In this document: piece after piece, positions 6,239 to 22,150 of the stretch
Position numbering within the stretch: the first letter of the stretch is position 1
Layout: each line of letters opens with the position of its first letter
NCBI GenBank assembly: GCA_021783855.1
Contig: JAJXTL010000036.1
Span: forward strand, 1-24,062
Length of the DNA stretch: 24,062 bases
Source of the DNA: Pseudomonadota bacterium
GTDB lineage: Bacteria; Pseudomonadota; Gammaproteobacteria; Burkholderiales; Gallionellaceae
Reading direction: 5' to 3'
The notes under the pieces: model-generated
What the model was told of the DNA's origin: nothing
What the model saw: the letters and a program-made list of their open reading frames with translations, nothing else
Database searches by the model: none
Program-made: the position numbers and the translations under genes

Positions 6239-7456
<1,218 letters not shown>

Positions 7457-7468
7457 TTAATTTTCCCT

Positions 7469-7496
7469 GGAACTATTTAAGAGAACGCTTATCTGA
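7469..7496 (+). promoter_or_regulatory. Sigma-E (RpoE/AlgU)-like promoter of a candidate small RNA
   Basis: GGAACTA at 7469-7475 and TCTGA at 7492-7496 are separated by 16 bp (7476-7491). The established RpoE/AlgU consensus is GGAACTT, 15-17 bp, TCTGA, so only one base differs. It points rightward, away from hemB and antisense to yihA, and predicts a start near 7501-7504, immediately before a structured segment with a terminator. Confidence 0.6.
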
Positions 7497-7501
7497 TCAC
7501 G

Positions 7502-7592
7502 TGAATGACGTTAAATCATTCCACGTTTCTCCTCCCTGAGCGTGTCTTAACCTGGTTAAGATTTTAGCCCCCACATGTTGGGGGCTTTTTTT
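7502..7592 (+). ncRNA. Candidate stress-induced small RNA with anti-Shine-Dalgarno motif
   Basis: A transcript of about 90 nt is predicted from the sigma-E-like promoter to a strong terminator. It would fold into a stem-loop at about 7500-7525 (CGTGAATGA against TCATT-C-CACG, one bulged C), a single-stranded pyrimidine-rich linker with CTCCTCCCT (7529-7537), a second stem-loop TCTTAAC/GTTAAGA (7545-7561, CTG loop) and the terminator hairpin. The linker is complementary to purine-rich ribosome-binding sites, as in the CCUCCUCCC-motif small RNAs of Rhodobacter. Both neighbouring genes are on the other strand, so the plus-strand terminator needs a transcript of its own. No short ORF explains it. 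Function and targets are unknown. Confidence 0.6.
7566..7592 (+). terminator. Rho-independent terminator of the candidate small RNA
   Basis: Stem AGCCCCC (7566-7572) and GGGGGCT (7580-7586), loop ACATGTT, followed by a run of seven T (7586-7592). On the minus strand the hairpin is followed by AAAATC, with no T-run, so it is directional and does not serve yihA. Confidence 0.9.
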
Positions 7593-7615
7593 GGACTTAC
7601 CACTAACGACTGACT

Positions 7616-8248
7616 TCAGTCTATGACGCTTTCATCCACGTTAGTCTTGGTGTCATCCGCCTTTAACCATCCGGAAATCACCGCTTCCGCCTCTTCCACG
7701 CCCTGCTTCTTCAGACTGGAAAACAACTGCACAGAGCATTGCGGATAGTTTTCGCCAAGATACGCTTTAACCTTCATCAACGTTATTGTCGATTGCTGGC
7801 GACTCAACTTGTCCGATTTGGTCAGCAATATGTGTACCGGTTTGCCGGTAGGCGCGAACCAGTCCAGCATGGTTTCATCCAGCTCCAGCAACGGGCGGCG
7901 TATGTCCATAATCACTACCAGCCCGCAAAGTTCCTCGCGCTTTTGCAAATAAGTGCTCAACAACCCTTCCCAATGGCGCTTGGCCTCGGGCGGCACTTTG
8001 GCGTAACCATAGCCAGGCAAATCCACGATGTAGTCGTTATGTCCAAGCGAAAAGTAATTCAGATGCTGGGTGCGGCCCGGCGTCTTACTGGTATAAGCAA
8101 GACGCACATGGTTCGCCAGGGTATTGATCGCACTCGATTTACCTGCGTTGGATCGCCCGACAAAAGCCACTTCGCGACCGCCGTGCATCGGCAAGTCCTT
8201 GATGTGGTTGACGGTGGTGTAGAACGTCGCCAGAGAAAAAAGTCCCAT
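7616..8248 (-). CDS. yihA: Ribosome biogenesis GTP-binding protein YihA/EngB
   Basis: Small essential TRAFAC-class GTPase (210 aa) acting in late large-subunit ribosome assembly. Motifs seen in order: G1 P-loop GRSNAGKS (31-38), a G2 region with TPGRTQ (56-61), G3 DLPGYG (76-81) and G4 TKSD (143-146). Length and motif spacing are those of EngB. The first base of its ATG overlaps the last base of the hemL stop at 8248, so it is probably translated from the same message as hemL. A short acidic C-terminal tail follows the GTPase domain. The next gene downstream on this strand is hemB, across a 174-bp gap that holds the candidate small RNA. Confidence 0.97.
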
Positions 8249-12549: not shown

Positions 12550-13139
12550 ACTTCCCGCTGGAAGCGATATACCGCCGTGCTGCCGAGCAGATTGGGCAGC
12601 ACACCAACTTCACGCCCGCCGGTCATCACGCTGCGCGCCGTGACGCTGACGCAGTATGTGCGGCAAAAATTCTCGAAGTCATTCAGCGTGCACAGGTGCA
12701 CGTTCGGCGTGTCGTACCACTGGTAGGGCAACTCGCGCGATACCGGCATATTGCCCAGCAACACGTCAAGGCGGCTCCTCCAGTAGCCGAAATTGGGGAA
12801 GCTGACAATGCCTTCACGTCCGACCCGCAGCATCTCCTGTATCAACGGTTCGGTATGCCGCGTGGCTTGCAACGTCTGCGATAGGATGACAAAATCGAAC
12901 GCGCCGTTCTCGAAATCCGACAGGCCGGCATCCAGGTCGTTCTGAATCACATTCACTCCATTGGCAATACAAGAAACAATGTCCAGATCGCTGATCTCCA
13001 CACCGTAACCGCGCACCGCCCGCGCTTCCTTGAGATAGCGCAACAAGCTGCCGTCGCCGCAGCCCAGATCCAGCACTGAAGCGCCCTTGGGTATCCAGGC
13101 AGCAATGGCCGCAAAATCGGCCCTATCAGTCGCACTCAT
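12546..13139 (-). CDS. metW: Methionine biosynthesis protein MetW
   Basis: Class I SAM-dependent methyltransferase-fold protein required with MetX for methionine synthesis in many proteobacteria; in studied cases it partners MetX in homoserine acylation. From ATG 13139 the product has 197 residues. SAM-binding motif I is [12 protein letters not shown] near residues 22-33. The conserved MetW blocks ILSQTLQAT and [12 protein letters not shown] follow. The start chosen forms an ATGA overlap with the metX stop (4 bp). A longer frame exists, but it adds five unconserved residues. The 3' end overlaps ampG by 4 bp. Confidence 0.95.
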
Positions 13140-14269
13140 GCCGACACCTCGCAACTTACCCGGTCAAGATACGCGCGCACCACGTCGAAATAATGCGGAT
13201 GTTCCATCAGGAAGGAATCATGCCCGTGCGTGGAAGTAATCTCCGCGTAGCTGACCGGGCGTTTATTGTGCAGCAGTGGACGGATAATCTCGCGCGAGCG
13301 CTGCGGCGAAAAGCGCCAGTCGGTGGTGAACGAGATCACCAGAAAAGCAGCTTTTGCGCGCGCAAAGGCGCGGTTCAGATCGCCGCCGCAATCCTGCGCA
13401 GGGTCAAAATAATCCAGCGCCTTGGTCATCAGCAAATAGGTATTGGCATCGAAATAGGCGGCAAACTTGTCGCCCTGATAGCGCAGATAGGATTCGATCT
13501 GAAATTCCACCTCATAGCCATAATTATATTGTTCGGTGCGCAACTCGCGCCCGAACTTGTCCGCCATCGCATCATCAGACAGGTATGTTATGTGTCCAAG
13601 CATGCGCGCCAGCCTGAGCCCGCGCGTCGGCACCACGCCGTGCTGGTAATAATCGCCGCCGTGAAAATCCGGATCGGTCAGGATCGCATTGCGCGCCACA
13701 TCGTTGAAGGCGATATTCTGCGCGGTGAGGCGCGGCGCACTGGCGATAGACAGCACATGGCGCACCCGATCAGGATAGGCCAGCGACCATTGCAAGGCTT
13801 GCATGCCGCCCAGACTGCCGCCGATCACGGCGGCAAAACAGCCAATGCCCAGCCTGTCTGCCAACCGCGCCTGCGACTCGACCCAGTCCTCTACCGTGAT
13901 CACCGGGAAACTTGCGCCGAAAGGCTTGCCGGTTTCAGGATTGATCGAGGAGGGGCCAGTCGATCCATGGCAGCCGCCCAGATTATTCAGGCCAACGACG
14001 AAAAATTTATCGGTATCGATCGGTTTGCCGGGACCTACCATGTTGTCCCACCAGCCGATATTTTTTGGCTCATCGGCGTAGAAGCCCGCCACATGATGGT
14101 GTCCTGACAAGGCATGGCAGATCAGAATGGCGTTGGATCTGTCGGCATTGAGCGCACCGTACGTCTCATAGAGCAGCTGATAGCCGGGCAACACCGCGCC
14201 GCTGCGAAATACCAGCGGAATGTCGAACAATGCGCATTGCGCAGTCACTATGCCTACAGAATTACTCAT
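13136..14269 (-). CDS. metX: Homoserine O-acyltransferase (MetX; probably succinyl-specific)
   Basis: Activates homoserine by O-acylation, the committed step to methionine. Alpha/beta-hydrolase fold, 377 residues. The catalytic triad is visible: Ser152 in the nucleophile elbow GGSLGGMQ, Asp317 in FTTDWRF and His350 in [20 protein letters not shown] (96-108) lines the active site. Many proteobacterial MetX proteins use succinyl-CoA rather than acetyl-CoA (MetXS). That is likely here by lineage and by Arg two residues after Asp317, but it is not proved. Downstream overlap with metW marks an operon. The leader contains a SAM-II riboswitch, a terminator and a 114-bp inverted-repeat element, so end-product repression by SAM is expected. 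There is no good Shine-Dalgarno sequence directly before the ATG. Confidence 0.95.
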
Positions 14270-14404: not shown

Positions 14405-14437
14405 AAAAAAACCCGTTCAGCTTGCGCCAAAACGGGT
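14405..14437 (-). terminator. Attenuator terminator of the SAM-II riboswitch
   Basis: Read on the minus strand, ACCCGTT (14437-14431, complement) pairs with AACGGGT (14417-14411) around a loop containing CGCAAGCTG and is followed by a run of at least six T (14410-14405). It lies downstream of the aptamer and upstream of metX. The loop CGCAAGCTGA (14417-14426) is exactly complementary over 10 nt to TCAGCTTGCG in the aptamer (14471-14480), giving a plausible antiterminator. Confidence 0.85.
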
Positions 14438-14439
14438 GT

Positions 14440-14500
14440 CCTCGCTTTAGCTAGAATATTTAACGTGCCCCGCAAGCTGATGTCAAATCGGCACGGGGTG
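14440..14500 (-). promoter_or_regulatory. SAM-II riboswitch upstream of metX
   Basis: S-adenosylmethionine-binding aptamer in the metX leader. Read on the minus strand, the stem CGTGCC (14495-14490) / GGCACG (14469-14464) encloses GATTTG and GCTTGC. It is followed by TTAAA (from 14463) and AGCTAAAG (to 14444). These are the conserved blocks of the SAM-II (metA/SAM_alpha) family in the right order and spacing, and metX/metA is its classic target. The pseudoknot helix is less clear by eye; CTTGC/GCGAG is one option. A terminator follows within about 5 nt, so control is probably transcriptional: SAM bound, terminator formed, metX-metW-ampG off. Confidence 0.87.
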
Positions 14501-14501
14501 A

Positions 14502-14530
14502 AGTTTGTACGTTTTATCACGCCATGTCAA
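14502..14530 (-). promoter_or_regulatory. Possible promoter of the metX leader
   Basis: A perfect -35 box TTGACA lies at 14530-14525 on the minus strand. The -10 is weak: TACAAA with a 15-bp spacer or CAAACT with 17 bp. Either would start transcription just before the SAM-II aptamer. Confidence 0.4.
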
Positions 14531-22044: not shown

Positions 22045-22150
22045 ATTACCTGGCGACCCCGCTGGCACTCGACTGTTGTCGTATAGGAATAACCCCTTAG
22101 CCCGGTAGCTTTGCGTCCCCGCCTTTCAACGGGTTTGCCCTTGCAGGCGT
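22045..22150 (-). promoter_or_regulatory. Cyclic-di-GMP-I (GEMM-I) riboswitch in the motB leader
   Basis: On the minus strand the aptamer shows GGGCAAACC (22140-22132), P2 CCCGTT/GGCGGG closed by a GAAA tetraloop (22127-22124), the core GGGACGCAAAGC (22119-22108), ACCGGGCTAA (22106-22097) and the P3 return GCCAGCGGGGTCGCC (22066-22052). P1 is CCTG (22147-22144) with CAGG (22052-22049). These match the class-I c-di-GMP aptamer block by block. Downstream, CAGGCG (22036-22031) can compete for the P1 strand CGCCTG (22149-22144), a likely switching helix. A separate 8-bp hairpin (22148-22168) sits at the 5' edge. Confidence 0.92.

Follow-up and report, generated by a model that had tools for sequence, protein, structure and literature searches.

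The stretch at 7469–7592 of the plus strand, within a window of 24,062 nucleotides (the whole stretch of DNA analysed here, from a bacterium of the Gallionellaceae), is probably a free-standing gene of the anti-hemB RNA family, activated by sigma-E and encoding a trans-acting blocker of ribosome-binding sites. The RNA is not new, given that its family is already known (Rfam RF02837; ncS04 of B. cenocepacia); the gene is well supported, the promoter claim is strong by comparison, and the function is what we infer from the sequence.

The RNA Gene and Its Family

In the window, the gene for delta-aminolevulinic acid dehydratase (hemB, ALAD; 6434–7441, Pfam PF00490, 452.4 bits) and a yihA/engB-type GTPase gene (7616–8248, Pfam PF01926, 68.1 bits), which we take to be yihA, both lie on the minus strand, opposite in direction to the RNA just as the initial annotation had described them, and the RNA sits on the plus strand opposite the yihA-hemB gap, upstream of the start of hemB. 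The RNA gene proper spans 7503–7592 (+), about 88–91 nt, and is supported by an Rfam match, by its fold and by covariation in 56 sequences. Positions 7520–7592 (+) match the full RF02837 “anti-hemB” model (1–81) with 54.6 bits against a curated cut-off of 49.5, and therefore the window RNA is a member of a catalogued family, also listed under the alias Burkholderia RNA 7; none of 14 named control genomes gave an RF02837 match above the cut-off. The small RNA gene that had been proposed at this site, without being recognised, is thus confirmed by this match together with a stable fold. It is like ncS04 of B. cenocepacia J2315 in its covariance-model family, its site opposite hemB, its loop motif and its terminator. 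In the open-access literature searched we found neither a function for the RF02837 family nor a report tying it to sigma-E, and hemB, ncS04, RpoE and sigma are all absent from a review on small RNAs of the Burkholderia cepacia complex (PMC10987360).

The Betaproteobacteria toxic small RNA family, RF02278, was also considered, since it shares with the window RNA a CU-rich stretch complementary to the Shine-Dalgarno sequence (anti-SD) and a terminator hairpin, and membership was rejected with a weak score of 29.1 bits against a cut-off of 50. The RF02278 RNAs of B. cenocepacia (ncS03, ncS05, ncS27 and ncS62) are 57–92 nt long and are described as double-hairpin RNAs (PMC5688073), whereas the window RNA has four helices in about 90 nt. 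In Bordetella, S17 is reported to be homologous to the RF02278 RNAs.

A search with the HemB of the window was headed by MAGs of Gallionella and Gallionellales, with identities near 90%, which makes this group the most likely origin of the window; a distant search of 7440–7620 against plasmids gave no match. Two riboswitches lie elsewhere in the window, both on the minus strand: a c-di-GMP-I riboswitch (22049–22149; 61 bits, cut-off 35), lying upstream of a gene whose MotB-like product has MotB_plug and OmpA domains, and a SAM_alpha riboswitch (14430–14504; 41.1 bits, cut-off 36), whose family takes its name from the Alphaproteobacteria and which lies upstream of a gene for an alpha/beta-hydrolase (13136–14269) that we would guess to be metX.

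Fold and Loop Motif

The 94 nt from 7501 fold with −29.6 kcal/mol (z −3.79), and none of 200 shuffles folded as well. Four plus-strand hairpins follow one another: hairpin 1 at 7503–7521, hairpin 2 at 7522–7544, hairpin 3 at 7545–7561, and an intrinsic terminator at 7566–7592, whose hairpin (7566–7586) has 8 counted pairs and whose run of seven T occupies 7586–7592. The terminator had been foreseen, as a 7-bp stem with seven T; as for the rest of the initial description, about 90 bp with two stem-loops around an exposed motif, the structured stretch held and the layout did not, given that the motif lies inside the loop of hairpin 2.

This structure is upheld by an alignment (A1) of the window with 55 relatives from hemB loci (56 sequences). 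Over the 25 pairs of the four helices, 93.0% of cells are paired, where shuffles give 83.1% and slid versions no more than 48.8%; 20 of the pairs are changed on both sides, and none of 500 shuffles scored as high on any of five measures. Both-sided changes affect 7/7 pairs of hairpin 1, 3/5 of hairpin 2 (94.6% of cells paired) and 5/6 of hairpin 3, and the terminator helix likewise covaries. We suggest keeping in mind that helices 1, 3 and 4 come from RNAalifold and helix 2 was added from the window fold before counting, and that A1 leans towards typical members because, among the seven of 62 prepared sequences that it omits (L013, L015, L030, L045, L049, L060 and L070), L030, L045, L060 and L070 are deviating ones; L001 and L018, cut or containing N, had been omitted earlier.

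The loop of hairpin 2 presents CUCCUCCCU (7529–7537, +), complementary to AGGGAGGAG ribosome-binding sites. Its conserved core is CUCCCUGA, with CTCCCTGA found in 151 of the 168 loci described below, and the full motif CUCCUCCCU is intact in 85 of the 168 (counted as CTCCTCCCT). In one Nitrosomonadales MAG (L030), promoter, hairpins and terminator seem to be kept and the CUCCCUGA loop is lost, with CACCCCUUGG in its place. The CCUCCUCCC stress RNAs of Rhodobacter have an exposed C/U-rich anti-SD loop, a trait that the window RNA shares; the likeness to them that the initial annotation had drawn extends to part of the motif and not to the full 9-mer CCUCCUCCC, which is absent from the window RNA, where the sequence reads UUUCUCCUCCCUGA. 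Many relatives also carry a CU-rich terminator loop (CUCCCCUUU, A1 columns 96–111), possibly a second pairing site, whereas in the window, as in several near relatives, the terminator loop is short and lacks this stretch.

Occurrence of the RNA and Its Promoter in Relatives

The HemB search yielded 80 loci. With patterns widened after sequence inspection, the RNA could be identified in 64 of them, on the strand opposite hemB and upstream of it. Of the 16 loci in which it was not identified, seven bear Methylotenera or Methylophilaceae in their titles, and one (L047) offers no more than about 300 nt of upstream sequence. R1, a covariance model restricted to the RNA and starting just past the −10 box in nearly all rows, found the RNA in 270 of 399 genomes of the order of Dechloromonas agitata. 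The first nine genomes all carry it, including three Methylotenera in which it lies away from hemB, with neither HemB nor YihA matched within 1.5 kb.

Upstream of the RNA in the window stand a −35 box GGAACT (7469–7474, +) and, after a spacer of 17, a −10 box TCTGA (7492–7496, +), the same boxes that had been described as a near-perfect RpoE-type promoter GGAACTA-N16-TCTGA. This is the single perfect match to the pattern GGAACT-N17-TCTNA when both strands of the 24 kb window are taken together; if up to two mismatches are allowed, the 13 sites found are in line with the 10.7 expected by chance, and therefore only the perfect match counts. By geometry only, 6–9 nt past the −10 box, transcription is predicted to start at 7502–7505 (+).

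We scored ten promoter positions (GGAACT plus the T, C, T and A of TCTNA) in 168 loci, an uneven, score-based selection from all matches: set A, 65 loci from the HemB search of the window; set B, 34 loci, namely 5 of the first nine genomes and 29 of the best from the 399-genome search; and set C, 69 loci whose scores range between about 98 bits and the lowest value among the loci fetched. Set B omits 8 of 42 loci because their genomes are already represented in set A, one of the eight being a promoterless tandem copy (L090), and the model R1 behind sets B and C contains no −35 box and, in nearly all rows, no −10 box. A score of at least 9 was reached in 129 of the 168 loci (A 57/65, B 29/34, C 43/69), leaving 39 below 9, and a score of at least 8 in 152, in which the boxes form a conserved block. 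Only 0.3% of mononucleotide shuffles reach 9 and 5.6% reach 8; for reverse complements the figures are 0/168 and 7/168. After upstream regions at least 60% alike had been removed, 78 of the remaining 108 still reached 9. In loci with the boxes, these are the conserved upstream columns and the DNA between them is variable. Picking the best site inflates the information content of the scored columns; the unscored T after GGAACT, which is unaffected by this picking, carries 0.61 bits; a T at this position fits the sigma-E consensus. The sigma-E-like promoter is thus conserved in most of the relatives inspected and is missing or weak in some lineages, and conservation extends to promoter, loop and terminator jointly in the loci inspected, which is the check that the initial annotation had proposed.

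The copies that do not lie beside hemB mostly carry similar sites. Among the Methylotenera, L089 has a perfect −35 box with TCAGA, and L088 and L087 have AGAACT sites further upstream; second RNA copies away from hemB in two Gallionella genomes (L091 in G003, L092 in G002) have sigma-E-like boxes with scores of 9 and 8, and the best site of each of the five copies scores 8 or 9. Set C shows another gene order in 21 of its 69 loci: here the RNA comes after yihA in the same orientation, HemB has no match within 1.5 kb, and the promoter score reaches 9 in 13 of the 21. The Nitrosospira briensis genome (G004, C17) has two tandem copies of the RNA (L083 and L090), and only the first has a sigma-E-like promoter.

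Is the Promoter Read by Sigma-E?

An RpoE-family protein scored above the cut-off in 15 of 15 genomes examined. As a weak indication, NGAACT-N17/18-TCTNT occurs within 400 nt upstream of 6 of the 15 rpoE genes, in a scan without a control and with sites of such quality not being rare. The abundance of the motif was dropped as evidence of a sigma-E regulon, given that its counts do not exceed those of the reversed pattern: GGAACTT-N15..17-TCTNA gave 17 sites against 17 in six genomes, and GGAACT-N16..18-TCTNA gave 98 against 177 in 15 genomes. The regulon argument rests, for this reason, on which genes recur. The 17 sites precede the RNA (2), rpoH (2), bepA (2), a cytochrome-c-like gene (2), a small conserved protein (3) and an amoC-like frame (1), with nothing clear behind the other 5. 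All three of RNA, rpoH and bepA carry the upstream motif in both Nitrosospira genomes, and a third genome resembling these two has the same motif before rpoH and bepA. The first 103 residues of one of these RpoH proteins score 157.8 bits (sigma-32 subfamily) and 150.9 bits (RpoH) against NCBIfam, and 110 residues of one BepA score 59.6 bits, all below the whole-protein cut-offs because only pieces were scanned. From the wider search, 20 of the 98 sites were fetched, picked by eye and mostly GGAACTT; named from their translations, they precede rpoH-like genes (2), bepA (1), an MlaA-like lipoprotein (1), cytochrome-b561-like genes (2) and a cytochrome-c-like gene (1), the rest having nothing clear.

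In E. coli, rpoH and bepA are sigma-E genes. The sigma-E label is well founded by sequence because the motif also precedes rpoH and bepA in the Nitrosospira relatives, and the reading of the promoter as sigma-E-type, already made in the initial annotation, gains support from this and from its conservation. Moreover, the SigE of Bordetella reads the P3 promoter of E. coli rpoH (PMC3490749), which shows the consensus to be in use within this bacterial class.

Two further observations concern other genes behind the motif. The amoC-like frame (51 residues) scores 27 bits against a cut-off of 280.6; a study cited in PMC5960693 deals, by its title, with AmoC3 in a Nitrosomonas europaea stress response. 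In three genomes (L311, L317 and L318 in G006, G316 and G227), the promoter motif stands before a conserved small cysteine-containing protein of 80–85 aa, whose one scanned copy had no match in NCBIfam.

Burkholderia-like Members

Among 20 mostly large genomes, five of which are also in set C, 17 had an RF02837 match over the cut-off. Eighteen loci were taken from these genomes: of the 17 loci scored, six reach a promoter score of 9 (two of these look identical) and 11 stay below 9, and a matching site is visible in the remaining locus (L304). Three anti-hemB RNAs of large genomes (L296–L298) have no good sigma-E box. Where the window RNA has a sigma-E-type promoter, the three presumably Burkholderia-like loci with the highest RF02837 scores (L289–L291) have instead a sigma-70-like −10 box, TATGAT or TATCAT (TATATGAT or TATATCAT), with no clear −35 box seen, and genomes looking related to B. 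cenocepacia have no sigma-E box at the RNA.

One of these loci agrees in length with the measured member of the family. From an assumed start 7 nt past the −10 box to the end of the T run, L289 spans 105 nt, and ncS04 of B. cenocepacia J2315 is reported to have 105 nt with mapped ends (PMC5688073). One Burkholderia-like genome (G294) has a second RF02837 match, below the cut-off, on the same strand at 72.2 kb, and the spacing between ncS03 and ncS04 is 71.6 kb; this similarity, like the top RF02837 score of the search, contributes to the label Burkholderia-like. By qPCR, ncS04 showed no significant change in any of the seven conditions listed in Table 2; cells were treated with SDS and peroxide as well, short stress being described as largely without effect, and ncS04 is named in a figure legend among the Northern panels for biofilm and mineral medium (PMC5688073). 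Probably, then, ncS04 has lost the stress promoter, and such a promoter replacement would explain why ncS04 looked unregulated.

Targets, Mechanism, and Alternative Explanations

A search of 20 genomes for TCAGGGAGG-N4..11-ATG yielded 63 matches, compared with 6 when the pattern was reversed, a control unmatched for Shine-Dalgarno content, and three of the 63 simply represent the complementary strand of the RNA gene. In 34 translations of at least 60 aa, named from the translations, the only recurring ones were PPK2-like (3 genomes), biotin-carboxylase-like (2) and one exported protein pair (2), and no convincing conserved target emerged from the 20 genomes. For 51 porin and small outer-membrane protein (OMP) starts in 15 genomes, from part of the matches listed, the loop duplex ranged from −5.8 to −16.1 kcal/mol, with the main porins mostly in the weaker half; in this set, which has some clearly mis-picked starts and no control, porins and small OMPs did not stand out as main targets.

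MicA, RybB and MicL of enterobacteria are sigma-E small RNAs. The window RNA has in common with them a short stand-alone gene, a terminator and, by sequence and conservation, the sigma-E-type promoter at the 5′ end that marks this class, and pairing in trans would be expected as well; no sequence kinship with them was seen (the MicA model gives 19.6 bits, cut-off 41), and the porin targeting of the enterobacterial RNAs is not supported here. A sigma-E-made RNA with an exposed anti-SD loop would most simply repress translation in trans. Under envelope stress, RNA polymerase with sigma-E would start at about 7502–7505 and make an RNA of about 90 nt ending at the terminator; hairpin 2 would display CUCCUCCCU, and the loop, probably together with Hfq, would pair with (U)CAGGGAGG-type ribosome-binding regions of other mRNAs and block their translation. 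For the RF02278 RNAs, CU-rich stretches are likewise predicted to cover ribosome-binding sites (PMC5688073), and a reporter test in the work on Bordetella showed direct repression of BP2158 by S17S (PMC11722255).

The family name itself suggests another reading, a cis-antisense RNA that pairs with a read-through yihA-hemB mRNA and tunes haem synthesis, and the location of the RNA agrees with it, since it faces the yihA-hemB gap in the window and precedes the start of hemB, on the other strand, in 64 of 80 HemB loci. Perfect antisense pairing, however, needs neither a conserved seed nor compensatory changes, and the three Methylotenera genomes, the two Gallionella second copies and the 21 set C loci of other gene order all have the RNA away from hemB. 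Given these copies and this second gene order, we consider cis control of hemB very unlikely, and the retention of the promoter in copies not beside hemB also disfavours a hemB-only role.

The lack of a significant change of ncS04 in the listed qPCR conditions (PMC5688073) and the fittingly placed TATGAT/TATCAT boxes of three Burkholderia-like loci would also suit a constitutive or growth-linked metabolic RNA made by sigma-70, like the RF02278 double-hairpin RNAs, with the GGAACT/TCTNA boxes having no major role; this seems quite unlikely to us, since where these boxes are present they are the conserved columns amid varying DNA, and they match the boxes of rpoH and bepA. More room should be given, while still regarding it as rather unlikely, to a general damping of translation, in which the anti-SD loop binds many purine-rich ribosome-binding sites and hence has no specific targets. 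The seed does overlap the anti-SD core CCUCC, neither the pattern search nor the OMP starts disclosed a conserved target, and overproduction of ncS27, an RF02278 RNA, slowed the growth of B. cenocepacia (PMC5688073); the conserved core CUCCCUGA, on the other hand, is longer than the anti-SD core and shifted from it, and the RF02278-like S17S of Bordetella did not impair the exponential growth of E. coli (PMC11722255). The sigma-E-activated, trans-acting RNA therefore stays our preferred reading.

Significance

We lean towards seeing RF02837 as a sigma-E small RNA that is widespread among Betaproteobacteria and possibly ancestral there, a counterpart of MicA and RybB with a single anti-SD loop (core CUCCCUGA), whose stress promoter was later swapped for a housekeeping one in Burkholderia-like bacteria. 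The RNA is otherwise an ordinary member of its family, and the point of interest is the sigma-E link together with its apparent loss in one lineage, which would allow the replacement of a promoter to be observed at a small RNA that is itself conserved. A conserved promoter of the sigma-E type would assign the RF02837 family to the envelope-stress response, suggesting a job for it, and, if true, this would add a small-RNA arm to the sigma-E response in a group with iron oxidisers and ammonia oxidisers among its members.
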